From a virus: a stretch of 48,423 bases of DNA. Both the position numbers and the translations under genes were made by a program. Below are positions 2,714-36,545 of the stretch, piece after piece. A model generated the notes under the pieces. That model was not told the DNA's origin. It did not search any database and was given only the letters and a program-made list of their open reading frames with translations. The stretch is taken from IMG/VR virus record IMGVR_UViG_3300034190_002406, positions 1 through 48,423 of that record, one strand, 5' to 3'. Position 1 is the first letter of the stretch, and each line of letters starts with the position of its first letter.

Positions 2714-2955
2714 TGTTTATCTTCAGTAAGATCAAACTCTACATAATTGCAGCTTTGGGCCTTCTGCTTCCAATTCTCTACGTCCTGGGACGCAAGGATG
2801 GAAAGACCTTGGAGAAAGGTAAAGTGATTGCCGACGAACTCCAGGCTCAAAAGAAAGCCGCAGATTTTTACAAAGCGATGTCTGAACATGATAAAACTCA
2901 TATTCCCACTAATAGTGGTGAGCTTGCTGACAGGTTGCGCAAGCACGGTCTATAG
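2713..2955 (+). CDS. Rz: i-spanin (Rz-like), 80 aa
   Basis: An N-terminal transmembrane helix (KLYIIAALGLLLPILYVLG) is followed by a charged, heptad-like region, the layout of an inner-membrane spanin subunit. It is short for an Rz protein (lambda Rz is about 150 aa). It follows the endolysin with a one-base overlap, and its 3' half contains the start of the outer-membrane partner in another frame. Together the pair would fuse inner and outer membranes after the wall is cut. The assignment rests on topology and nesting. Confidence 0.75.
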   Translation: MFIFSKIKLYIIAALGLLLPILYVLGRKDGKTLEKGKVIADELQAQKKAADFYKAMSEHDKTHIPTNSGELADRLRKHGL

Positions 2956-3139
2956 GACCAAGCTCGAAGTCTACTGTCCTTCCATAATACCATACCCTCA
3001 GGATCTAACAAACGTCTTATCAGACGAGATCGAGGGCCTGAAGGACACCTCAGTAATCCCTATCTTCATAGCCGATTACACCGAACTACGAGACGAAATA
3101 CGTACATGCGAAAGTGAGAGGGCTAAACTAAATGGCTAA
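2888..3139 (+). CDS. Rz1: o-spanin (Rz1-like lipoprotein), 83 aa
   Basis: Starting at the internal ATG at 2888 gives MIKLIFPLIVVSLLTGCAS, a classic lipoprotein signal with lipobox LTGC. A longer reading from 2828 would put 20 basic residues before the signal and is unlikely. The mature part contains a Pro-Tyr-Pro segment and two further cysteines. The first 68 bases overlap the i-spanin gene in a different frame, and the end overlaps the next gene by 8 bases. Most Rz1 proteins are strongly proline-rich; this one is only mildly so. Confidence 0.78.
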   Translation: MIKLIFPLIVVSLLTGCASTVYRTKLEVYCPSIIPYPQDLTNVLSDEIEGLKDTSVIPIFIADYTELRDEIRTCESERAKLNG

Positions 3140-8278: not shown

Positions 8279-11200
8279 TGGCTGACGATAAGTTTCAGGC
8301 ACTCGAAGATCTCCTTTCTGCCGACAAAAATGACCCCTTAAACGATCAGTATAGTGCCGGGGGTGCTCCTGTTGAGCTACCGGAACCTAAGCCGATTGAT
8401 AAACTTGCAGATGAGCTTGGCTCACAATACTGGCAAGGTATGTCTTTCCGGGAAGCTATGGATGAGTATGATCGTATAGCAGGCCTCCCTAATGCTGAGA
8501 AAACCTTAACTGGAAACCTGAGATATACAGATACAATCACAGGCCAGGTAGAAGATGTTCCGCGGCCTTCTCCAAAAATGTGGAAGGCTACGCTTACAGC
8601 GGCAGGCCAGGCTATCGCGGCACCGTTCTCTGAGAATGTCTCTCTCGGTGACGCCTACGAAACCTTCACTAACCCAGAAGCTGGTGTAGATGCAGATAGA
8701 TTACTTCTCATGGGAGCTCGGGAAAGTGCTGGAGACTTACAGGAGCTAGGTGCTGCCGTTATGGGTAATGACGAGCGAGCTGAAGAGATTGCTTTAAACA
8801 GCCCTCAAGTTGATACAGAAGATAGCTTTGTAGACAGTATGGTTGCGGATGGCGGTCCTGCCATTGCAGCTGCTATTCTCGGGGATAAAGGCCTTAGCAA
8901 AATTGGCCCTGCTTTATCAGCACTTACAAAATATGTACCTCAGTTTGTAAAAAATGCTGGCCGTGTGCTTGCCGGGGAAACTGCGGCGGTAGCTACGATT
9001 GGGACAGAGGAAGGAAATGTTGTTTTAGGCGAAGATGCAGCCATACCCTTATTTGATGGACTAGATCTTGGCGATTCTAAATCTGACCAGATTGTAGAGC
9101 AGCGAGTAAATGCCCTGATTGAGGGTATTGGTGTATCTAGTCTTGCTGCAGGAGCCCTTCGTACAGCTGCAGACACTGCAGGCTTGGTATACGACATGTT
9201 GGTACGACCTGTAATGGGGGTGATAGGTCCGAAAAGTAATAAAGAAAGGGTTATATTTGATGATATAGCCAACCGCTTAGCTGGCATTACGGAGGCAACT
9301 ACCGAGGAAGAGCGGTTTCAGATCATTCAGTCTATGGCAGAAACTATAAATGCTAATCAAGAAGTATTCATATCCCGGCTAGCCGCTAACCAGGAAGAGA
9401 TGCCGATTAAGCTTGATACCCTCAACGCACTTATACGGGGTATTGAGGATCCCCAGATGGCTGCAGAGGCTCGTAAGGTTATCGCTGGTATGAACACCAA
9501 GGCGATGCCAGGCTTCACAGCCAAACTGGATGCACCTAAAGCTCGCATGGATGCAGAAATACAGTCGTATTTAGATTCAATCGATGCCCCAAATCCTGAA
9601 GCTCAAACCGCCGCTATGCAAGGTGCTGCAGATGACTTTGCTGGCCAGGCTAATCAGTATCTTAATGAAGCTACGGCACCAGCTGCAAAATTTGATGCAG
9701 ACTACAACCAGGCTCTAGAGAGTATTGGTTCAGGTATTTCAGATGATCTAGAGTTTGCTGGGCGGCTAAAGCAATTAGAGACCGTTACAGGTACTGACAT
9801 AGCGGAAGCAAAGAGTGGTAAGCTCAATGAAATTATGGAAGGTGTACGGCTAGGTTACGAGGATCTCTCTAACCAGAAGAACACGCTGTATAATGAGATC
9901 AAGGGTGGGGAGATTGATCCTGATGCCTTGTTTGAAAAGTTATTCGATCTGAATGACGATCAGCTGTCAGCTGCTTTGAGCCAGGTGCGCAGATCTAGCC
10001 CGATTAAAAATATGCTGGATATCATTAACACAAAGAATGTGCCTGATGTCGATCCAGATACCGGCAAAGAAATTATGCGTCCACCTACAGACGAGGAGCG
10101 GCTTGCGTTATTCAGAGATGCTCTAACCGGCCAGAATGCAGACTTCGGGTATATCTATACCACGATTAGACCCGAACTCAGCGCATTAGCTTCCGATCTG
10201 TACTCTTCTAACCAGGGCGGTGCCGGTAAAGTTGTACGTGATCTTGTACGTTTCATTGATGAAGACATGGTTACTTTTGTTGAGAACAGTGACCCTGATT
10301 TGGCTGAGGCTGCACGGGCAGCTAAGTCCTTCTACAAGGATACATTTGCACCTATCTTCAGTGGCGAAGGTGTGATGGCTGACTATGCAGATCTCTACAA
10401 CCGAACTGTTGGACGTACAGACAGTACAGACCTTACAGCCGGAGTTACTGGACCTGAGTTTGATGCAAGCGGCTATAACCAGGGAGTAGAGAACCTATCT
10501 AAGGGCATACTATCTGGGGGAAATGTAGCCTCTGCCGATCAGATGATGCAGGCCCTAAAGGTAGCATCAGATCCTAACGCTATGGCAGACTACATGGTAC
10601 TTGATGTGCTGGATAAGTATGCCTCAGATATCAGGATTAACGGACTAGACGGCGCAAAACTTACAGGGATGTCCACAGACCTTCAGAGGTATGCCGACCA
10701 GCTAAACGAACTGTTTCCAGAGAAGGCGGCACAGATCACTACATTTGTGTCACAGATTGAAGAGGCTGCAAGATCACGTGGTAACCTAGATGGTGTTATG
10801 GAGCGCCTAGATGGTGCCGTTAAATCTGCTAAGGAAGATATTGCAGAGACAGAGCTCATGGGATTTCTTCGTACTGAGTTAGGTAACGATGAATTCTTGG
10901 CGACAACAAATCCACAGGCCGCGTTTTCTAAGCTGTTTAATAAAGACGAAGTATTAGCGAGTATTGAAAATATAAATCTATCTATGGCCTCTTTACCTCC
11001 AGAACGCCGTGCCATTATTAAGAAGGGCTTAGAGGTTGCCTATCTACGGCATTTTAAGCTCAAGACTTCTGATTTCCGGGCAGAGCTTGGTGGAACAACT
11101 CCTATCAAAGAGGTTCCTATGGCTAAGGCCCAGCAAGGCTTTGATAGCTTACTGCAAGTTGGTCGAGAAGTATTTGCTGATAAGCCTGAGGTTGCGGAAG

Positions 11201-18218: not shown

Positions 18219-18236
18219 GTACATACACTAAGTCAA
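18208..18236 (-). promoter_or_regulatory. Leftward sigma70-type promoter for the SSB/exonuclease operon
   Basis: TTGACT (18236-18231), 17-base spacer, TAACTA (18213-18208), leftward. The -35 lies in the last codons of the polymerase gene. An inverted repeat covers the -10. Confidence 0.55.
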
Positions 18237-20381
18237 TTCAGTTTCTTCCATTTCCATCCAGTTTTTTCCAATTTCCATCTCGACATCGAGCGGCAAAACA
18301 AAGTCATAATTGAAGCGCTCCTTGATCTCCTCCTGTACACCAGACAGCGCCCACACCATTGCCTCCTTGACCTGGCTGATTTCCCCAGGAAAAACGTCTG
18401 CTACCAAGCTATCGTGCACAGTGAGTATGATCTTTGATTTTAGGTTGCGCTGCTTAAAAGCTCTCAAAGCACGAACACAGGCCAGCTGCATAATTATCCC
18501 GGCAAAGCCTTGTACAGGGTAATTTACGACTGCAGTGGCATTGGTGATACGCCCGTTGCCTAATCTCCTAGCATCCTCGAACATATACCGCTTGCCAGAC
18601 GGTATGCGAACTAGGCCATCCTGCAGTACACCGTCCATCAGACGTTTGTGCCAAGTGGCTAGGCCTTTGTAGAGCCCAAAATAGGCTTGAAAGTATGCTT
18701 GTATATGCTCAGGCTCAGTCATACCCATTCCGCCATATAAAGGAGAAAATGTATAAGATTTCGCGGCTTGGCGCATATCTTTTGTAACAGAAGATACCTC
18801 ACATTGGTTTATGATAGCCGCAGTTTGTTTATGTACGTCCTTCCCTGTGAGAATGTCTTCTATAATCTGGCTATCTTTGCTCAACTCTCCCGCAACGCGA
18901 AATTCAACTCCCGAGTAGTCGATCTCGCAAATTTTTCCGCCTTCAAACCTACTGATTATGCACTTACGTACCGGGAACTTAGATCCTTTGGGTAAATTTT
19001 GGAAATTTGGCTTGCTAGAGCTTAAACGACCTGTCCTGGCTATAGTTTGGTTGAAGTTAGGGTGTAGCAGGCCATCAAATCGAGTCCACTTACGTATCGC
19101 CCCGACAAAAGAAGACAGATAGGTACTGATAGCGTTGTAGCGCATGAATTTTGTAATGTATTCTACGGCTACATCGTTCTTCTTTGCCTGTGCCTGGACA
19201 ATCAAGCGTTTCAGGGTAACCTTGTCGGTCTTGAAGCCGTGAATAGAGGCATCTCTAGGCCCCTCTGGTACAAGCTTTAATCCTGCTCTCTCTCCAGTTG
19301 GTACGTAGAACACACCTAGGCCTTTGCACTCCGGGCAGGGGGATAAGTTCTTATAGGGCTCACCTTGTACTCTGTACTGTACCTTATTCTTAGTCCGGTA
19401 CTTCGTTTTGTACTTCTGGATGTTACCACTACCGTCACATGCACCACAGCACTGTATATGTGTCTTATCGACCAAGACAGTAGTAGTACGCACAGCGGTA
19501 TTGAACTGGGTTTTCTTTGGCATCCTAGCTGGAGGAAGTGGTTTTCCGTTTGGCCCTACCCCTATGTTAAAGATCCGGCGATGTAAGTCCCTATCAGTAA
19601 CCACTCGACCGTAGAAAACCTTGTTCATACAGATACCCGAATTCAAATTTATAGGGGTGTCTCCCATAAGTTTCTCGTTGGTAGCCTTGAGGTATCTACC
19701 TATTTCCTCTTGCTCAGCGATAAATTCCCGCTCTACGTCCTCCAGAACATCTAGATCAATCTTGCAGCCATTGTTCTCCATATGTGTGAGAAACTCTAGG
19801 TTAAGCCGCCCTAACTCGAAGCACGGCTTCATGTCCTCATATTCCGGTGAGTTAAGATCTTCTTCTTGCTGTAGGTATATTTCAGCACAGCTAATCACAT
19901 CAGCTTCTGCGTACTCTAAGACTGTATCAATGGGCATAGCCTCGAAGCCAGTGCCGCTCTTGAACATCTCGTCTACCAAATCAGATTTCTTACGAGTTAC
20001 GTCTCTTCGCTCAGCTGTAGCTTTGAGCGACAATAACCACGGCCTTGCCTGGGCAAACATAAACTCCCGAACCATAGTGCATTCAACAGGAGGTAGATCA
20101 AATTCCATATCGATAAGCCAAGAGGCATCGAATTTGGCATTGTGAAATACAGCCTTAGTGCAGCTGTCCAATGCGTCTTGTAAAGGTTTTCGGCCATCTG
20201 CTTTTGGCACATCATTGTGGTTCCACACCAGGTGATTGATAGGGGATATAACTCCATCCTCTATAATCACCCAATGAGCTGACACAGCATAGTTGTCTGG
20301 GTTCTTTGGACTGTTATCGATGTCACCTTCAATGATTGATACTTTTACCTCTAGGTCTCCCACAAACACCCTATTCGACAT
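18228..20381 (-). CDS. polA: Family A DNA polymerase with exonuclease and inserted DnaJ-like zinc module, 717 aa
   Basis: Replicative polymerase. Proofreading exonuclease motifs: Asp9-x-Glu11, HNAKFD (80-85), Tyr157-x3-Asp161. Residues 310-358 carry CCGAC-x-GSG and CPECKGLG, two CxxCxGxG knuckles of the DnaJ zinc-finger type, placed between exonuclease and palm; this arrangement is characteristic of HMO-2011-type phages. Polymerase motif A is EIDYSGVEFR (Asp488), motif B RQAAKSYTFSPLYG (Arg537, Lys541, Phe545, Tyr549), motif C VHDS (Asp657). Phe545 is the equivalent of E. coli Phe762. I chose the ATG at 20381, overlapping the helicase end by 11 bases with a GAGG site; a 36-residue N-terminal extension from 20489 looks unrelated to the fold. 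Confidence 0.95.
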   Translation of the reverse strand: MSNRVFVGDLEVKVSIIEGDIDNSPKNPDNYAVSAHWVIIEDGVISPINHLVWNHNDVPKADGRKPLQDALDSCTKAVFHNAKFDASWLIDMEFDLPPVECTMVREFMFAQARPWLLSLKATAERRDVTRKKSDLVDEMFKSGTGFEAMPIDTVLEYAEADVISCAEIYLQQEEDLNSPEYEDMKPCFELGRLNLEFLTHMENNGCKIDLDVLEDVEREFIAEQEEIGRYLKATNEKLMGDTPINLNSGICMNKVFYGRVVTDRDLHRRIFNIGVGPNGKPLPPARMPKKTQFNTAVRTTTVLVDKTHIQCCGACDGSGNIQKYKTKYRTKNKVQYRVQGEPYKNLSPCPECKGLGVFYVPTGERAGLKLVPEGPRDASIHGFKTDKVTLKRLIVQAQAKKNDVAVEYITKFMRYNAISTYLSSFVGAIRKWTRFDGLLHPNFNQTIARTGRLSSSKPNFQNLPKGSKFPVRKCIISRFEGGKICEIDYSGVEFRVAGELSKDSQIIEDILTGKDVHKQTAAIINQCEVSSVTKDMRQAAKSYTFSPLYGGMGMTEPEHIQAYFQAYFGLYKGLATWHKRLMDGVLQDGLVRIPSGKRYMFEDARRLGNGRITNATAVVNYPVQGFAGIIMQLACVRALRAFKQRNLKSKIILTVHDSLVADVFPGEISQVKEAMVWALSGVQEEIKERFNYDFVLPLDVEMEIGKNWMEMEETELT

Positions 20382-21597
20382 AGCGAGATACCTCGCCGTG
20401 TAGATTGCAGATGATCGTGTTGTGCCATCCGTTAATCTTGTTCTTAGATACTGTGATGAAACGTGTAGGATCTTCCTCTGCATCATCACTAGAGCCTGAG
20501 TGCTTGCCGAGACCGATAATGATATCAGCTTCAGCCGCTTTAGAGATCTTACTCCCTGCCATCATGTCGTAGGTAACACGGGTCTTACCTGTAGCATCGT
20601 TAGAAGCCTGGCTTACGCCCCAGATTACACAGTTATGACGCTTAGCACTTTCACGGGCTCTGCGGTATATCTCCCCTAGACGCTCATGGGTGGCGTTGTA
20701 GGAGCCTCTGACACTAATCTTATCGAGCTGGTCAATAAACACCGCTGCAGGTTTATGCTTAGCTAGTGCCGCCTCTACTTTCTCGATGTCCCAATCTTGA
20801 GCATCATATATGACCAGGCTACCCTGCATCTTGGCATTGAATATCAGCTCAGCTTGCTCACGTTCCTCGGCTACTCTTTCCTTTGTGTAACCCAGGGCAG
20901 TACCGTAAGCCCGTTTGATAGTGTCCTTGGTGCTTTCTTCGTTACCGATTATTAGAACCTTGTGACCCTGGTCTATATAACCTCCAGGCCCAAGAGCTAG
21001 GCTAAGCACAAACGCAGTTTTACCCGTTTCAGGAGTAGCAAAGATGATCCCGAACTTACGGCGGGTGATACCTGGTATCTTCCTGTGTAAAGAAGACAAG
21101 TTAAACTCAAGTAGACCCTCCTCTTCTTCCTCAGCTAAGATTTCTGTAATGTTGAGTGTCGTAGGCTCACCAAGATCATCTGGCATGTATCCTTCGCTGT
21201 TACGCTCAATCAATTCCAAAGCCTGTCTAAAGGCATCGTCGTTACCTTCTGAAATCTCCAGACCGTAGGAGGCTAACCTTTTACCTACGCTGCGCCTCCA
21301 CAGATGTTCGATGCTATCTTTTGCAATGTCAGGGCTGATCACAGAAGCTTCTTCGATGTCTTCCACAAGATCTTTCATATTATGACGGTCAGCCTTGGTA
21401 GCCACCGGATTGTTCAGCTTCCAAAGAGAAAGTAGCTCTTCGCAGGATAGGTTGTGCTGATATTTTTCATGGGCTTCTGTAATAACCTCATACAATTCTC
21501 GAATATCATCTTCAAATAACTGCTTCGATAGTTTTTCTTTGTTTTGTTCATAAAAGTCGTAAGATAACAGACTTTTTAGAAAGTTAGTGTCCAACAT
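20371..21597 (-). CDS. DnaB-like replicative helicase (gp4 helicase domain), 408 aa
   Basis: RecA-type motor: Walker A ATPETGKT (187-194), Walker B AAVFIDQLDKI near residue 295, the GVSQAS sensor and the late SKISKAAEADIIIGLGK segment common to T7 gp4/DnaB helicases. The first 150 residues are a helical domain with no zinc finger, so this is helicase only; the primase is a separate gene upstream. It drives fork unwinding with the polymerase encoded directly after it. Confidence 0.9.
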   Translation of the reverse strand: MLDTNFLKSLLSYDFYEQNKEKLSKQLFEDDIRELYEVITEAHEKYQHNLSCEELLSLWKLNNPVATKADRHNMKDLVEDIEEASVISPDIAKDSIEHLWRRSVGKRLASYGLEISEGNDDAFRQALELIERNSEGYMPDDLGEPTTLNITEILAEEEEEGLLEFNLSSLHRKIPGITRRKFGIIFATPETGKTAFVLSLALGPGGYIDQGHKVLIIGNEESTKDTIKRAYGTALGYTKERVAEEREQAELIFNAKMQGSLVIYDAQDWDIEKVEAALAKHKPAAVFIDQLDKISVRGSYNATHERLGEIYRRARESAKRHNCVIWGVSQASNDATGKTRVTYDMMAGSKISKAAEADIIIGLGKHSGSSDDAEEDPTRFITVSKNKINGWHNTIICNLHGEVSRYVE

Positions 21598-22155: not shown

Positions 22156-22953
22156 TCAACTACCCTCATAGATGGCGTCCTCCCCTAAAACAGTCTGTAT
22201 TTGATCCGTGTTGAGCCATTTCAAATCATCTTCCAGAAACACAACTTTAGTGTTTACTCGTCCTTCCAGTTTGCTTTTAAGCTTTATTGCTTTCTTACTC
22301 GCGTCTTTATCTAAGGCTACTATCACCTTTGTAAAGTGTAACAGTTGTGACCTTTGTTGAGAGCTTATATTGGTCCCAAGTAATGCGCAACCCGAACAAA
22401 AAGAGAACCTACTTACACTAGCAGCTGATGCCGCATCTTCTACCACAACTGCAACCTTACCGGAACCTATCTGAAGTAAGTCTGATGTGTTTCCGTAATT
22501 CTTCCATTTAGGTTTTTCATTGCGGAGAGATCTACCTACACCCGCTGTACCGCAGGGGAACATGAATATAACCCTACGAAGCGCTGGGCTGTACCTTACA
22601 TCTATCAGACCATCCTCATATGCCTGCAGAGAGTTAACACCCTTTAGGTAGTGTACGGCTTCCGGGTGATTCCTAGCTGGAGAAAGATTGGGAGGTAGTG
22701 GTGCTGCAAAAGGTTCTTCCGGTTTGGTTACAGCACTGAGACGATCCTTTAATCCATTTAGGGTATACCCGACTTTCTTAGCTCCTCGGATACCACAACT
22801 TGCCTTAAAGCAATTCCATACCCGGGCACCTTCAGAATACTTAATACCGAATGTCTTATTACCACCACAGAAAGGGCAGTCGATACGGCGACTTTCACCC
22901 TCTTTCAGTCGGATGTTATCCAACATCTCCAGCTGTTCTTTGTAGTTAAACAA
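22156..22953 (-). CDS. DNA primase (T7 gp4 primase half), 265 aa
   Basis: N-terminal zinc ribbon with Cys26, Cys29, Cys48 and Cys53 (CPFCGG ... WNCFKASC), then a TOPRIM domain with KVAVVVEDAASA (Glu172) and IVALDKDAS (Asp215, Asp217). Synthesises RNA primers at the fork. No helicase domain follows; T7 gp4 carries both activities in one chain, whereas here they are two genes about 560 bases apart. Confidence 0.9.
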   Translation of the reverse strand: MFNYKEQLEMLDNIRLKEGESRRIDCPFCGGNKTFGIKYSEGARVWNCFKASCGIRGAKKVGYTLNGLKDRLSAVTKPEEPFAAPLPPNLSPARNHPEAVHYLKGVNSLQAYEDGLIDVRYSPALRRVIFMFPCGTAGVGRSLRNEKPKWKNYGNTSDLLQIGSGKVAVVVEDAASAASVSRFSFCSGCALLGTNISSQQRSQLLHFTKVIVALDKDASKKAIKLKSKLEGRVNTKVVFLEDDLKWLNTDQIQTVLGEDAIYEGS

Positions 22954-23012
22954 GGTATTAGGTTTCCATTTCTTACGTGTTGTAAGTGATTGATAAATTA
23001 AAAGCGGCTTTT

Positions 23013-23052
23013 ACCCTGAAGGTCGTAGGTTCAAATCCTACTCCCGCAACCA
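23013..23052 (+). other. Probable attP: 3' end of an initiator tRNA (fMet)
   Basis: Forty bases contain the end of an anticodon arm, the T arm (GTAGG, TTCAAAT, CCTAC), a 7-base acceptor half (TCCCGCA), discriminator A and CCA. From memory of the family this is the 3' end of alphaproteobacterial tRNA-fMet. The upstream sequence has no D arm or 5' acceptor strand, so it is not a working tRNA. Together with the integrase 1.9 kb away it is best read as the core of an attachment site that would restore the host tRNA gene on integration. Confidence 0.8.
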
Positions 23053-23145
23053 AGTGACTGATATCATTGCATAATTTTGCCCTTTGATATGCTGTGATGC
23101 CATTTGCTGTCGTCACCCTAGTAGCTACACTTTTTATTACCTTAA

Positions 23146-23391: not shown

Positions 23392-23613
23392 TTACTTCGC
23401 TAGTCCCTTTAATACTTGCTCGTACTTAAAGAACAGCTGCTCAAACTTCCATTGGTACACTTGCTGCAGGCCCATCAATGCGTTCATCATTTCATCATGT
23501 GTAGGATCACGCTCACCGTCACCTATCTGTCTGAACACAGCCTGCAGGTCATCACACACATGCCAGCAATCCATAATCATAGGCTCTAAATCATATAGTT
23601 TAGGCATCATCAT
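23392..23613 (-). CDS. Hypothetical protein, 73 aa
   Basis: Helical, with paired cysteines near the N-terminus ([10 protein letters not shown]) and aromatic-rich second half ([15 protein letters not shown]). Overlaps the thyX end by 14 bases. MPKLY two codons in is an alternative start. Function unknown. Confidence 0.6.
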
Positions 23614-24250
23614 CCTCCGTCAGTGCATCCCATGATACAGGGAATAGCTCGATCATCTTACGATCAATCTGCTGTGATACCTGCCGTGTCTCTGCCTGTG
23701 TGTCAGACTTGCAGCGCAGGTTACACATATCAGCAAAGGCATCTAGGCTACCTGACCAGTACCATTCGGTCATTGTGGACAGTGGTAGTTCCATACGGGC
23801 TTGCTCTGGTGCTACACCATGCTCAAGCAGATCTTTGTAGGCTTTAAGTGCTGCCCAACCTGAGCTACCCCAATCACCTACATTTACTACACCATCAGAG
23901 CCTTGCTTCTTGTCGGCACTTCGTCCACGCCATGCGTAAGGAGTGTATAACTCAGGCTCATCATCGACATACCTACGGCTGATCTCATTCCATCGTAGAA
24001 ACTTATGCTTGACTAGCTGTCGTGCTACAAAGATGGGAGCCTTGATGTGGAAGGATGCAAAGCAATGGCCAAAGGGGCTGATGTGCTTGTGCTTGGCTAG
24101 GTATCGGATCAGCTTATCGTCCTTTGCCTTGAGTTTAGGTGGACCCCAAGGATTGTCTTCCATCTCACTGGTCTTACCAAAGGATACACGGGCGGCGTTG
24201 GCTACCGTTAAGTCACTGCCCATGTGATCGATGTAAGTTGCTTTAATCAT
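23600..24250 (-). CDS. thyX: Flavin-dependent thymidylate synthase ThyX, 216 aa
   Basis: Makes dTMP from dUMP using FAD, NADPH and methylenetetrahydrofolate. The family signature RHR-x7-S is present in variant form: [11 protein letters not shown] (Lys81-His82-Lys83 ... Ser91) followed by [11 protein letters not shown]. Other family segments are ISPFGH (FAD contact) and [16 protein letters not shown], which closes the dUMP site. Lys for Arg in the signature is seen in other phage-type ThyX proteins as I recall, so it is likely active. Overlaps the preceding small ORF by 8 bases. Confidence 0.93.
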
Positions 24251-24422
24251 TTATCTGTACTCCAATACACTCGATTGTTTCTTGTTTGTTATTCACCAGG
24301 ACGGAAGCAATCCGACGTTGTGCCTGGCAAATTGTTTCATTGTCGAATGTACCTAGGTGATGATACCTGACGCCCTGTTCTGGGATTGAGTTGAACCAGA
24401 TAAGTAAAAATATTGACTTCAT
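24243..24422 (-). CDS. Small secreted or membrane-associated protein, 59 aa
   Basis: Reads MKSIFLLIWFNSIPEQGVRY and on to a charged C-terminus; the first 12 residues are hydrophobic and may be a short signal or membrane anchor. Two Cys residues. Overlaps both neighbours (3 bases upstream, 8 downstream), so it is part of the coupled int-thyX set. Function unknown. Confidence 0.6.
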   Translation of the reverse strand: MKSIFLLIWFNSIPEQGVRYHHLGTFDNETICQAQRRIASVLVNNKQETIECIGVQIND

Positions 24423-24574
24423 TAGAACGGGGGTTCTCCGTTTTTATCCAACTCAGGAAGGTTATATTCAAACGTGCGGATTGGCGTAGGCTCTTCTGGG
24501 TCCGTATCAGTAGCAGTGATTACGCCCATGTCTGATAGGTAGTTAGCCAGCTCTACCGGTATCTGGTTATCCAT
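24422..24574 (-). CDS. Small hypothetical protein, 50 aa
   Basis: Reads MDNQIPVELANYLSDMGVIT and ends LPELDKNGEPPF. Joined to both neighbours by TAATG overlaps. Acidic, soluble; no family recognised. Confidence 0.6.
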   Translation of the reverse strand: MDNQIPVELANYLSDMGVITATDTDPEEPTPIRTFEYNLPELDKNGEPPF

Positions 24575-24819: not shown

Positions 24820-24962
24820 TTACTGTCTCTCCTTCTAAGTTCATCTCGCACTTCCCGGATCAAGTCTATCAAACGCTCGGTCACTAATTGTGCAGGCTTG
24901 TTTGTTAGCCTCTGCATCTCTCTCTCAAATTCAACACGGGCTGCGTTAACGTCTTTAGTCAT
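24816..24962 (-). CDS. Small charged helical protein, 48 aa
   Basis: Reads MTKDVNAARVEFEREMQRLT and ends IREVRDELRRRDSK, a single amphipathic helix. ATGA overlaps tie it to the integrase upstream and the glutaredoxin downstream. Function unknown. Confidence 0.6.
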   Translation of the reverse strand: MTKDVNAARVEFEREMQRLTNKPAQLVTERLIDLIREVRDELRRRDSK

Positions 24963-26023
24963 CCAAACCTCTTCTTCATTCCATTTTTGGCTAATCCACG
25001 TGTGGGCCGTACATAGATGTTTAAGACATCCCTGCTTTGGTGGCCGGTTACTGCCCGTATTTCATCCGCTGAAGCACCGCTTTCAGCCATCTCAGTGGCT
25101 CCCGTGCGGCGTAGGTCCGCCATCCGTAGTTCATCTGGTAAACCAGCTTGCTGGCAAATGTTCCTAGCCTGCTTATAGTAGCTCCAGCGTGTGTGAGGGT
25201 GTCCAGTAAGGTCGTTAAGGACAATCGTGCCTGTAGAACGGTTACATGCTTCGATACGATCTAAGATTGGCTGCGTTAGATCTACGTCTACGTGAGTGCC
25301 TGTCTTCTCTTGCTTGAACCGCATCTCTGTGCCGTATAGCTGATCAAAGGTGACCTGACGCATATCACCTGGCCTCTGGCATAGGTGGTAACACATCAAA
25401 GCCATCAGACCCAGGTTTGGCATATTGTTTTCATCGCACGCAGACACAAACTGAGTAACCTGCTTTGTATCCCACATCACAGTACGGGACTTAGGAGCTT
25501 TTAGGCGCATCTTCTCAAAAGGATTATGCTGAACTCGGTTAGCTCGCTTAGCTACGTTCCATATCAGGCGCATAACCTTCATACAGTGTACCGCACGATG
25601 GTGGCTGAAGTTCTCTCTGATAGTATTCTTCAGTTTAACGCTATGTTCATTACTGACATTCTTAGCAAGCATGTCCCCGAACCGTACATTCGAGCTTTCT
25701 AGTCTGCTTTCGCTGACGTTTCTCATAAGCATACGAAAGCTGGTCTTAGTGTTCTTAGCGGTGTCTATGAACTCGTCTTGCCCCAGGTAATATGCAAACA
25801 CACCGTTGACTGTAGTGTCCTTGACTATGAAATCACGTGTGTTACGGCGCTTAAAGTCTATGTATTCATCATCGATTTTAGCACTGTATTTCCTAGCCTC
25901 GTCTATAGTGTCGAAGGGAAAGTACCTTACGCCTAGGGCATCCCGCAGGTATTTCGGAGGGTTAAAGGCCCAGTAAACTTTACCGTCAGCATGTTTGCGT
26001 TCATTCACATATTTGATATTCAT
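24959..26023 (-). CDS. int: Tyrosine recombinase (integrase), 354 aa
   Basis: Three parts: N-terminal arm-binding-like region (1-60), core-binding SAM-like domain (about 70-165), catalytic domain (about 180-354). Catalytic residues visible: Arg217 in CQRPGD, Lys240 in QEKTG, Arg305 in DLRRTGAT, His328 in TGHQS and nucleophile Tyr337 in NIYVRP. The usual His of the HxxR motif is Ala302 (ADLR). AGGAG lies before the ATG. With the tRNA-like attP at 23013 this supports site-specific integration. Confidence 0.92.
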   Translation of the reverse strand: MNIKYVNERKHADGKVYWAFNPPKYLRDALGVRYFPFDTIDEARKYSAKIDDEYIDFKRRNTRDFIVKDTTVNGVFAYYLGQDEFIDTAKNTKTSFRMLMRNVSESRLESSNVRFGDMLAKNVSNEHSVKLKNTIRENFSHHRAVHCMKVMRLIWNVAKRANRVQHNPFEKMRLKAPKSRTVMWDTKQVTQFVSACDENNMPNLGLMALMCYHLCQRPGDMRQVTFDQLYGTEMRFKQEKTGTHVDVDLTQPILDRIEACNRSTGTIVLNDLTGHPHTRWSYYKQARNICQQAGLPDELRMADLRRTGATEMAESGASADEIRAVTGHQSRDVLNIYVRPTRGLAKNGMKKRFG

Positions 26024-34278: not shown

Positions 34279-34650
34279 ATGACCGAAAAGAAGCTCTCAG
34301 AACGCCAAGAGAAGTTCATCGAAGCTCTACTAGGCGAGGCCAAAGGTAATGTACGCCAGGCTATGCGTATTGCTGGCTACAGCGATACCACAGCTATCCG
34401 AGAGGCTATGGCACCGGTTGCTGAGGAAGTTGCCGAGGCGGCTCAGATGTTACTGGCCCTAAACGCTCCTAAAGCTGCGCTGGGCATGGTTGGCGTACTG
34501 GATGATCCTTCATCGCTTGGCGCACGAAATGTTGTAGCAGCGGCGAAAGAGCTTCTAGACCGTGCCGGTGTAGTTAAGAAAGAAAAAGTAGAGGTAAGCG
34601 GACCTGCCGGTTCCATGTTTATCCTACCTCCAAAACAAAGTTCTGAATGA
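34279..34650 (+). CDS. terS: Terminase small subunit, 123 aa
   Basis: Recognises phage DNA and hands it to the large subunit. LSERQEKFIEALLGE, then NVRQAMRIAGYSD is the helix-turn-helix signature of small terminases. It overlaps the large subunit by 4 bases. A C-terminal Pro-rich end (FILPPKQSSE) may contact the large subunit. Confidence 0.82.
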   Translation: MTEKKLSERQEKFIEALLGEAKGNVRQAMRIAGYSDTTAIREAMAPVAEEVAEAAQMLLALNAPKAALGMVGVLDDPSSLGARNVVAAAKELLDRAGVVKKEKVEVSGPAGSMFILPPKQSSE

Positions 34651-36545
34651 CAGACGATCCTGATTTTCCGATCAAGCGCCGAGCTAATGCTAGCTCAAAG
34701 ATAGCTTACGGATATATTCCTACCAAAGAAGATCCTCGAGTATGTGTACCGGACCCGGCTTTTATGCCGTTTGTACGCGAAGCTCTAGATCACATTGACC
34801 AGGGCGGAAGTCTTAGGGAGACAGCTGCCTGGCTTACCGAGAAGACCGGCGTATCTATCAGCCACCAGGGTATTAACCGCATATGGAAAGAGCGTAGAGG
34901 ATCTCTACCCGAAAACCAGCGCGAGAAGCAGCAAAAGAAACAACGCAAGAAGCTAGCGCCAAAAACTGGACCCGCAAAAGCTAAGGCCAAGATCAAGCGA
35001 AAAGCATCTGACGCGAAACGTGTTCTAGTGATGCAACAAAAGAAGCTTGAAGCCTGGGTTGATAAGGATAATCCCGAAGACAATATCAAGTCTGTTCCCC
35101 TTTCAGAAAGCCTGGATTTTGACTCTATCGAAAAGAACCAGGAAGATCGTACCGTTGTATTTGCTCCAAATCCTGGGCCACAAACAGACTTCCTAGCATC
35201 ATCAGAAAACGAAGTACTTTATGGTGGAGCCGCCGGTGGTGGAAAAACTATGGCCCTTATCGCAGACCCTATGCGGTACTTCGATAACGGTAACTTTAAC
35301 GGCATCATCTTACGTCGAAGCACCGACGAACTACGTGAAATTGTTTGGAAAACTCAAGAGCTTTATCCTCAAGCTTTTCCTGGTGCAAAGTGGGGCGAGA
35401 AGAAGAGCCAGTGGACGTTTCCGAGTGGTGCAAGGATCTGGCTAACCTACCTTGATCGTCCTGAAGATGTTCTACGTTATCAAGGGCAAGCTTTTAGCTA
35501 CATTGCATTCGATGAGTTGACGCAACACCCCACGCCCTTCGCGTATCTGTATATGAAATCTCGATTGAGAACTACAGATCCTATGCTTCCTACCTTTATC
35601 CGCGCAACAACAAACCCAGGTGGCCCCGGTCATAGCTGGGTCCGCAAGATGTACATTGATCCTGCGCCTGCAAACAAAGCATTTCCGGCAACGGACATCG
35701 AAACAGGTAAAACCCTGGTGTACCCGGAAAGCCATGAGAAAGCAGGACAACCGTTATTTACCCGGCGGTTTATACCAGCCAGCCTCTACGACAACCCGTA
35801 CCTAACTGCAGACGCGAGTTACGAGGCTAACCTTCTATCTCTCCCTGAAATGCAGCGCCGACAGCTCCTAGAGGGCGATTGGGATGTAGCTGACGGGGCA
35901 GCATTCCCCGAATTCAAGAAGGCCGATCATGTGATTGAGCCGTTTGATATTCCCAATGAGTGGCGACGATTTCGCAGCTGCGATTACGGCTACAGTAGCT
36001 ACTCAGCGGTCCACTGGTTCGCAATCGATCCATCTTACGAAACATTATATTGTTATAGGGAACTCTATGTCTCAAAACACACAGGAAAAGATCTTGGCGC
36101 AGCTGTTCTCGAAGCAGAGAGAGGTGAACCAATTAGTTACGGAGTATTGGATAGCTCTTGCTGGCACAATCGCGGCCAACTTGGACCGAGTATTGCCGAA
36201 GAAATGATATCAATGGGGTGTCGCTGGCGTCCAAGTGATCGGACAGCTGGCGCACGGGTGGCAGGTAAAAATCAATTTCATCAACGCCTTAAAGTAAACG
36301 AAGAAACTAGCCTTGCTGGCATCATTTTTTTCAATACCTGCCGCCAGATTATATCGGATCTACCAGTTATTCCTTCAGATCCAAAAGGATCAGACGATAT
36401 CGACCCAAGATACGCAACCGATCATGCCTACGATAGCGTGAGGTACGGCATAATGAGCCGTCCTAGATCAGCTTCCCCGTTTGATATGGGTAAAGGCGTT
36501 CCAATTCAGAACTATCGCCCAGCTGACGCCTCGTTTGGCTACTAG
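34647..36545 (+). CDS. terL: Terminase large subunit with recombinase-like N-terminal domain, 632 aa
   Basis: Packaging motor and headful or site-specific nuclease. Walker A is GGAAGGGKT (193-201), Walker B IAFDEL (Asp289, Glu290), coupling motif TTNPGG near 321-326, and an RNase H-like nuclease with CDYGYSSYSAVHW near 445. Residues about 18-86 (SKIAYGYIPTKEDPRVCVPD, then LRETAAWLTEKTGVSISHQG) look like the DNA-binding recombinase domain of large serine recombinases, followed by a very basic linker (90-135). Large terminases normally start close to the ATPase, so this fusion is unusual; it may bind DNA. Confidence 0.92.
   Translation: MTDDPDFPIKRRANASSKIAYGYIPTKEDPRVCVPDPAFMPFVREALDHIDQGGSLRETAAWLTEKTGVSISHQGINRIWKERRGSLPENQREKQQKKQRKKLAPKTGPAKAKAKIKRKASDAKRVLVMQQKKLEAWVDKDNPEDNIKSVPLSESLDFDSIEKNQEDRTVVFAPNPGPQTDFLASSENEVLYGGAAGGGKTMALIADPMRYFDNGNFNGIILRRSTDELREIVWKTQELYPQAFPGAKWGEKKSQWTFPSGARIWLTYLDRPEDVLRYQGQAFSYIAFDELTQHPTPFAYLYMKSRLRTTDPMLPTFIRATTNPGGPGHSWVRKMYIDPAPANKAFPATDIETGKTLVYPESHEKAGQPLFTRRFIPASLYDNPYLTADASYEANLLSLPEMQRRQLLEGDWDVADGAAFPEFKKADHVIEPFDIPNEWRRFRSCDYGYSSYSAVHWFAIDPSYETLYCYRELYVSKHTGKDLGAAVLEAERGEPISYGVLDSSCWHNRGQLGPSIAEEMISMGCRWRPSDRTAGARVAGKNQFHQRLKVNEETSLAGIIFFNTCRQIISDLPVIPSDPKGSDDIDPRYATDHAYDSVRYGIMSRPRSASPFDMGKGVPIQNYRPADASFGY

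Follow-up and report, generated by a model that had tools for sequence, protein, structure and literature searches.

Gene neighborhood of the tRNA-like segment

We analyzed a stretch of 48,423 nucleotides, a virus record of IMG/VR referred to below as the window, in which a short tRNA-like segment occupies the intergenic gap immediately before the start of a DNA primase gene. The features that bear on its interpretation are the following.

18228..20489, minus strand: DNA polymerase of family A; its two CXXCXGXG motifs are a hallmark of the HMO-2011 type
22156..22953, minus strand: DNA primase
23015..23052, plus strand: predicted attP core of 38 nt, the same sequence as the 3' portion of tRNA-fMet
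23025..23041, plus strand: T arm GTAGG-TTCAAAT-CCTAC, within the core
23600..24250, minus strand: ThyX thymidylate synthase, between attP and the integrase gene
24959..26023, minus strand: tyrosine recombinase/integrase, 354 amino acids (PF00589, E 7.8e-14; phrog_1, E 5.9e-27)
34647..36545, plus strand: terminase large subunit

Gene content places the phage in the HMO-2011 type, near CRP-3, CRP-235 and CRP-212 (subgroup III). The best relatives of its terminase are those of CRP-3, CRP-212, CRP-235 and CRP-738 (67-69% amino acid identity), the packaging genes are shared, and the integrase gene lies upstream of the replication module. The polymerase has a partial DnaJ domain with the motifs CGACDGSG at residue 348 and CPECKGLG at 385; polymerases of the HMO-2011 type are described with two CXXCXGXG motifs in the account of CRP-3 (PMC6918029). 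The order integrase, ThyX, primase, helicase and polymerase is that of CRP-3 and CRP-235, and a tRNA 3' end occupies the gap before the primase gene in CRP-3, CRP-235, CRP-212 and CRP-738 as well. The region around thyX (23419-24429) has 84-86% DNA identity to the cobavirus-type phages CRP-4 and CRP-5, to which the rest of a 6.1-kb query has no match; a recent gene exchange between phage groups is the likely cause.

The integrase gene lies 1.9 kb from the tRNA-like segment, as the initial annotation had it. Its catalytic residues R217, K240, R305, H328 and Y337 are invariant in 20 relatives. The histidine that we take to be usual in box II, before L-R-R, is absent and an aspartate stands in its place.

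A 38-nt match to the 3' part of the initiator tRNA

According to the initial proposal, the 40 nt at 23013-23052 (ACCCTGAAGGTCGTAGGTTCAAATCCTACTCCCGCAACCA) form an attP core that corresponds to the tail of tRNA-fMet and has an integrase gene nearby. They agree at 39 of 40 bases with the tRNA-fMet reference, cellular and viral (CGCGGGATGGAGCAGCCCGGTAGCTCGTCAGGCTCATAACCTGAAGGTCGTAGGTTCAAATCCTACTCCCGCAACCA), which has 100% matches on roseobacter plasmids. Position 23013 corresponds to A37 and 23014 is C where the reference has A38; identity then runs unbroken over 38 nt (23015-23052), through the anticodon stem (3' strand), the variable loop, the T arm, the 3' acceptor strand and CCA. The proposal thus holds over 38 exact nucleotides, and only its 40-bp length falls short, by the mismatch at 23014. 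ARAGORN calls no complete tRNA anywhere in the window and Rfam, at its gathering threshold, reports none; the tail therefore lacks a tRNA 5' half, again as proposed, and we found no second copy of it in the window. Unbroken identity through CCA combined with a missing 5' half is the configuration of an attP site at a tRNA 3' end. The exact 38-mer is also present in CRP-3 and CRP-235. We rejected a chance origin, since reversed-sequence controls over 80 loci reach at most 22 of 38 matches.

Full-length tRNAs that end in exactly the core sequence are classified by ARAGORN as tRNA-Met with anticodon CAT, and in these position 1 is a C facing an A at position 72. The C1:A72 opposition is a hallmark of initiator tRNAs. 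From the anticodon and this mismatch together, we assign the matched tRNA to the initiator (tRNA-fMet) and not the elongator, in agreement with the target first suggested. Identical 77-nt tRNA-fMet genes are found on roseobacter and sphingomonad plasmids and, among the matches listed, matching 3' parts in many alphaproteobacterial genomes. A degenerate tail pattern is matched in 89 of 149 Rhodobacteraceae genomes, with at least two copies in 33 of those 89 (counted from the table). In the two genomes checked, those of Tritonibacter horizontis and Shimia marina, an rRNA operon closes with the target gene, placed after the 5S rRNA. The lack of a matching host tRNA, or a match to a different tRNA with many mismatches, was to count against the proposal; neither was encountered, exact matches being present in many Rhodobacteraceae.

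Proposed integration and restoration of the tRNA

We therefore favor, at a probability of about 0.94, the reading that 23015-23052 is the attP core of a phage of the HMO-2011 type, a predicted roseobacter podophage, at which the integrase would recombine with a host tRNA-fMet gene and rebuild the initiator tRNA. In the proposed mechanism, the tyrosine integrase (24959-26023, minus strand) would recombine the core with its identical counterpart in the 3' part of the host gene, which would serve as attB. The host 5' half would be joined to the phage-borne 3' half to give an exact initiator tRNA, and the host's own 3' end, now displaced, would mark the opposite end of the prophage. The direct repeats flanking the core would bind the integrase as arm-type sites, and strands would be exchanged in the T loop. 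Recombination by this phage itself is our inference from the sequence, as are the point of crossover and the function of the repeats.

In silico, four joined stretches of a few hundred nucleotides were given to ARAGORN, which recognized the hybrid of host 5' and phage 3' halves as tRNA-Met and found no tRNA at attP or at the opposite junction. The view that an essential target gene would need restoration by the phage copy is hence correct in form. It is less dramatic than suggested, since fMet genes are often multicopy (members of rRNA operons in the two cases checked) and integration of CRP-3 has already been shown (PMC6918029). A separate locus, L024, carries a tRNA-Met at 10-86 and a tail at 10465-10499, and looks like an integrated element with the rebuilt tRNA-Met at one end and the displaced 3' end at the other.

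Stable lysogeny or transient insertion

Relatives of the window's integrase as prophages were sought in several ways. A scan of genome contigs with integrase profile A1 gave none (three short peptide patterns, of limited sensitivity). Across 394 Rhodobacteraceae genomes, an integrase profile that recovered 6 of 6 phage records as positive control retrieved only distant integrases, in nine genomes (best score 106 bits; close members score above 500). In a different order, 162 genomes yielded no match at E 1e-40. One exact pattern for hybrid junctions was found in no viral contig. No member of a repressor family was recognized among 40 window proteins (PHROGs) or 30 (Pfam).

Terminators differ as well. 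Within 130 nt of the tail, an intrinsic terminator is present in 3 of 31 window-type attP sites, the window not among them, compared with 13 of 21 other viral fMet-tail loci, defined by a longer tRNA identity; among cellular fMet genes the figure is 27 of 64. All sets were reduced at 65% flank identity. In the other element types (L083, L100, L062, L027 and others), a terminator often stands within about 30 nt of the tail, as in cellular fMet genes, as if it replaced the displaced terminator of the rRNA operon.

These observations raise a possibility that we consider real, if on balance not the probable one: attP and integrase work, and the phage inserts briefly during lytic infection with no repressor-maintained lysogeny, as described for the cyanophage S-TIP37, which integrates without forming stable lysogens (PMC8776855). 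The lack of a repressor match, the lack of a prophage of this integrase type in the genomes searched and the scarcity of terminators all favor it, as does the fact that the CRP-3 evidence comes from infected cells (PMC6918029). However, a conserved attP that tracks its target implies lasting selection for integration, marine phage repressors may escape profile recognition, and the genomes of pelagic roseobacters have been sparsely sampled, which makes absent prophages weak evidence. Moreover, the authors of CRP-3 describe both lytic and lysogenic cycles for that phage (PMC6918029).

Flanking repeats and probable crossover point

Two direct repeats, 68 nt apart, border the core.

22983..22994, plus strand: left flanking repeat TAAGTGATTGAT, a probable integrase arm-type site
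23051..23062, plus strand: right flanking repeat CAAGTGACTGAT, a probable arm-type site

To compare them among relatives, 70 attP rows (flanks of at least 80 and 70 nt) were aligned and reduced to 28 non-redundant sites at 65% flank identity. Across the 28 sites, the left motif reads TAAGYCATTGATTTCATT and the right motif CTGATWTCATT, both at fixed positions. On the left, TTGA occurs at -25 in 17 of 28 relatives and A at -30 in 27; on the right, TGAW occurs at one offset in 21 of 28 and in at most two at any other offset from 0 to 59. Taken alone, with two mismatches allowed, the left motif is no rarer than chance (9 occurrences in the window versus 8.8 expected), so support for the left repeat lies in its fixed position across relatives. 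An arrangement as inverted repeats was dropped, as the alignment of the 28 sites shows direct repeats. Arm-type binding sites of the integrase are their most likely function. The T stem probably provides the core-type binding sites, with the 7-nt T loop as overlap.

Strand exchange is most likely placed in the T loop (class II): the T loop is identical in window and host, while the anticodon loop (CTTTTAC in the window, CTCATAA in the host) is mismatched at three of seven positions, and a T-loop exchange has been proposed for mycobacteriophage Ms6 (PMC1762012). A class I crossover in the anticodon loop, with the anticodon stem as core-type sites, seems improbable to us. The 5' edge of identity at the anticodon stem would suit it, as would the retention of each base of CAT and of A38 in 14 to 19 of the 28 relatives, but the window's loop has three mismatches, and an overlap must normally match for recombination.

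Tails in related viral loci

An exact 35-mer of the tail is found in at least 120 viral contigs, and a complete tRNA covers the tail in 6 of 80 tail-bearing viral contigs (ARAGORN). An integrase-family frame is present in the retrieved stretch of 68 of 126 tail-bearing sequences, a set that includes duplicates; in 60 of the 68 this frame is located on the 3' side of the tail and is directed towards it (counted by eye).

We also selected loci by integrase profile, independently of the tail. The best 80 of 198 loci comprise 68 with an fMet-like 3' end, 8 with another tRNA 3' end and 4 with none. The fMet tail was first searched on one strand; a search on both strands in 7 of the 13 loci missed raised the fMet-like count from 67 to 68 and the other-tRNA count from 6 to 8, the remaining six misses being already assigned to another tRNA. 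In 67 of the 68, the tail lies 76-2022 nt beyond the integrase stop on the opposite strand; in the exception, L275, it lies 1.1 kb upstream of the gene in the same orientation. Three loci with close integrase relatives (L269, L272, L287) and at least 4.3 kb of DNA after the gene have no detected tRNA 3' end; the fourth tail-less locus stops 45 nt after the integrase gene.

The eight loci with another tail (L273, L277, L279, L309, L328, L329, L338 and L341) end in ..GGGCCTACCA, a sequence present in none of 100 Rhodobacteraceae genomes and none of 60 genomes of another order. A similar end occurs at a locus of a metagenome-assembled genome (L138:5683-5759) in a tRNA with a CAT anticodon, which may be tRNA-Ile(CAT) or elongator tRNA-Met; the tail of the eight loci possibly derives from a CAT-anticodon tRNA.

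T-stem covariation and target switching

Six versions of the T stem are seen across the 70 attP rows (GTAGG/CCTAC, GCAGG/CCTGC, GTGGG/CCCAC, GTCAG/CTGAC, AGAGG/CCTCT and GCCAG/CTGGC), all paired at five of five positions; the alignment pattern required TTCAAAT, so that constancy of the T loop in these rows carries no weight. The covariation of T-stem pairs indicates that the segment tracks real host tRNAs, and the GTAGG and GCAGG versions are both present in host genes of Rhodobacteraceae. CRP-212 (L257; tail at 2811-2848, minus strand) has the compensatory GCAGG/CCTGC version, which is found in other host genomes. CRP-212 and CRP-3 share a host strain, which may carry both versions of fMet; alternatively, CRP-212 may have a wider history.

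CRP-738 (L258; about 2934-2971, minus strand) carries in the same slot a different tRNA 3' end, which from its sequence we take to be tRNA-Asn-like. Its integrase is 28% identical to that of the window, and similar flanking repeats are kept around the different core (read by eye). We interpret this, from the sequences compared, as target switching of the attP cassette. In HMO-2011, CRP-1, CRP-207, CRP-345, CRP-4 and CRP-5 (12-14 kb each), no fMet tail scored above shuffles; the first four have distant integrases, and CRP-4 and CRP-5 have no integrase gene among the annotated features of that stretch.

We rejected, as having hardly any chance of being right, the idea that the tail is a remnant of a once complete phage tRNA-fMet gene: phages do carry tRNA-Met genes, and a few contigs of the tail search have complete ones (L015). 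However, identity in the viral matches repeatedly starts in the anticodon loop or at the 3' strand of its stem and extends as far as CCA, in most cases without a 5' half; compensatory changes keep a T-stem pairing that a decaying gene would not. The tail also has a constant position with respect to the integrase and the repeats, and it is absent from the six relatives without the window's type of integrase.

Relation to known systems

An attachment site at the initiator tRNA remains our preferred reading, and integration of this kind is known already from CRP-3, which integrates at tRNA-Met(CAT) of strain FZCC0040 with a core overlapping the 3' end of the gene, as documented by hybrid reads and PCR (Zhang 2019, PMC6918029). 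CRP-3 shares with the window the identical 38-mer, the gene order int-thyX-attP-primase-helicase-polymerase, a terminase 69% identical and an integrase 40% identical; its flanks and the anticodon-loop bases just 5' of the core differ. The passages of that report concerning the site name tRNA-Met(CAT), without initiator label or host location, and in the literature searched it was not evident that the initiator had been named as target for the HMO-2011-type group. Sequence comparison here identifies the CRP-3-type target as the initiator tRNA.

Other systems resemble the window in part. In Ms6, too, the attP core includes the T loop and corresponds to the 3' end of a tRNA gene, at which the phage integrates, but the target is tRNA-Ala and the 26-bp core stops short of the variable region, versus 38 bp in tRNA-fMet here (PMC1762012). 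S-TIP37, a T7-like phage for which transient integration has been shown, is a marine podophage, as predicted for the window's phage, and shares with it integrase, attachment site, a lytic habit and the lack of a recognized repressor; phage group and host are different (PMC8776855). Tyrosine integrase and a tRNA gene as attB are also shared with tRNA-dependent lysogeny, in which, as reported, a core of about 10 bp leads to loss of the host tRNA and a phage tRNA complements it (Guerrero-Bustamante and Hatfull 2024, PMC10865867). The window, in contrast, has a 38-bp core predicted to restore the tRNA and no phage tRNA gene; neither a short, non-rebuilding core nor a phage tRNA of the same isotype was found in it. 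CAT-anticodon tRNA genes, including fMet, are reported to be carried by or near Sinorhizobium prophages (PMC11476347, PMC12429752).

A broader and tentative proposal, which we rate as rather unlikely, would make the int-attP cassette of these oceanic podophages a retargetable module that serves transient insertion and not lysogeny: repeats and slot would be kept constant, and the 38-nt core would be exchanged so as to follow the host tRNA (T-stem variants of fMet, another tRNA whose end is CAT-anticodon-like, tRNA-Asn). Insertion at rRNA-operon-linked fMet 3' ends would be brief and confined to infection, with neither repressor nor replacement terminator.

The attP core links an ocean virus to alphaproteobacteria bearing this tRNA-fMet, most likely roseobacters, and core and direct repeats together provide a clear attP anatomy over dozens of uncultured phages. 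As the junction sequences to be sought in metagenomes are now defined, the temperateness of the abundant HMO-2011-type phages becomes directly testable.
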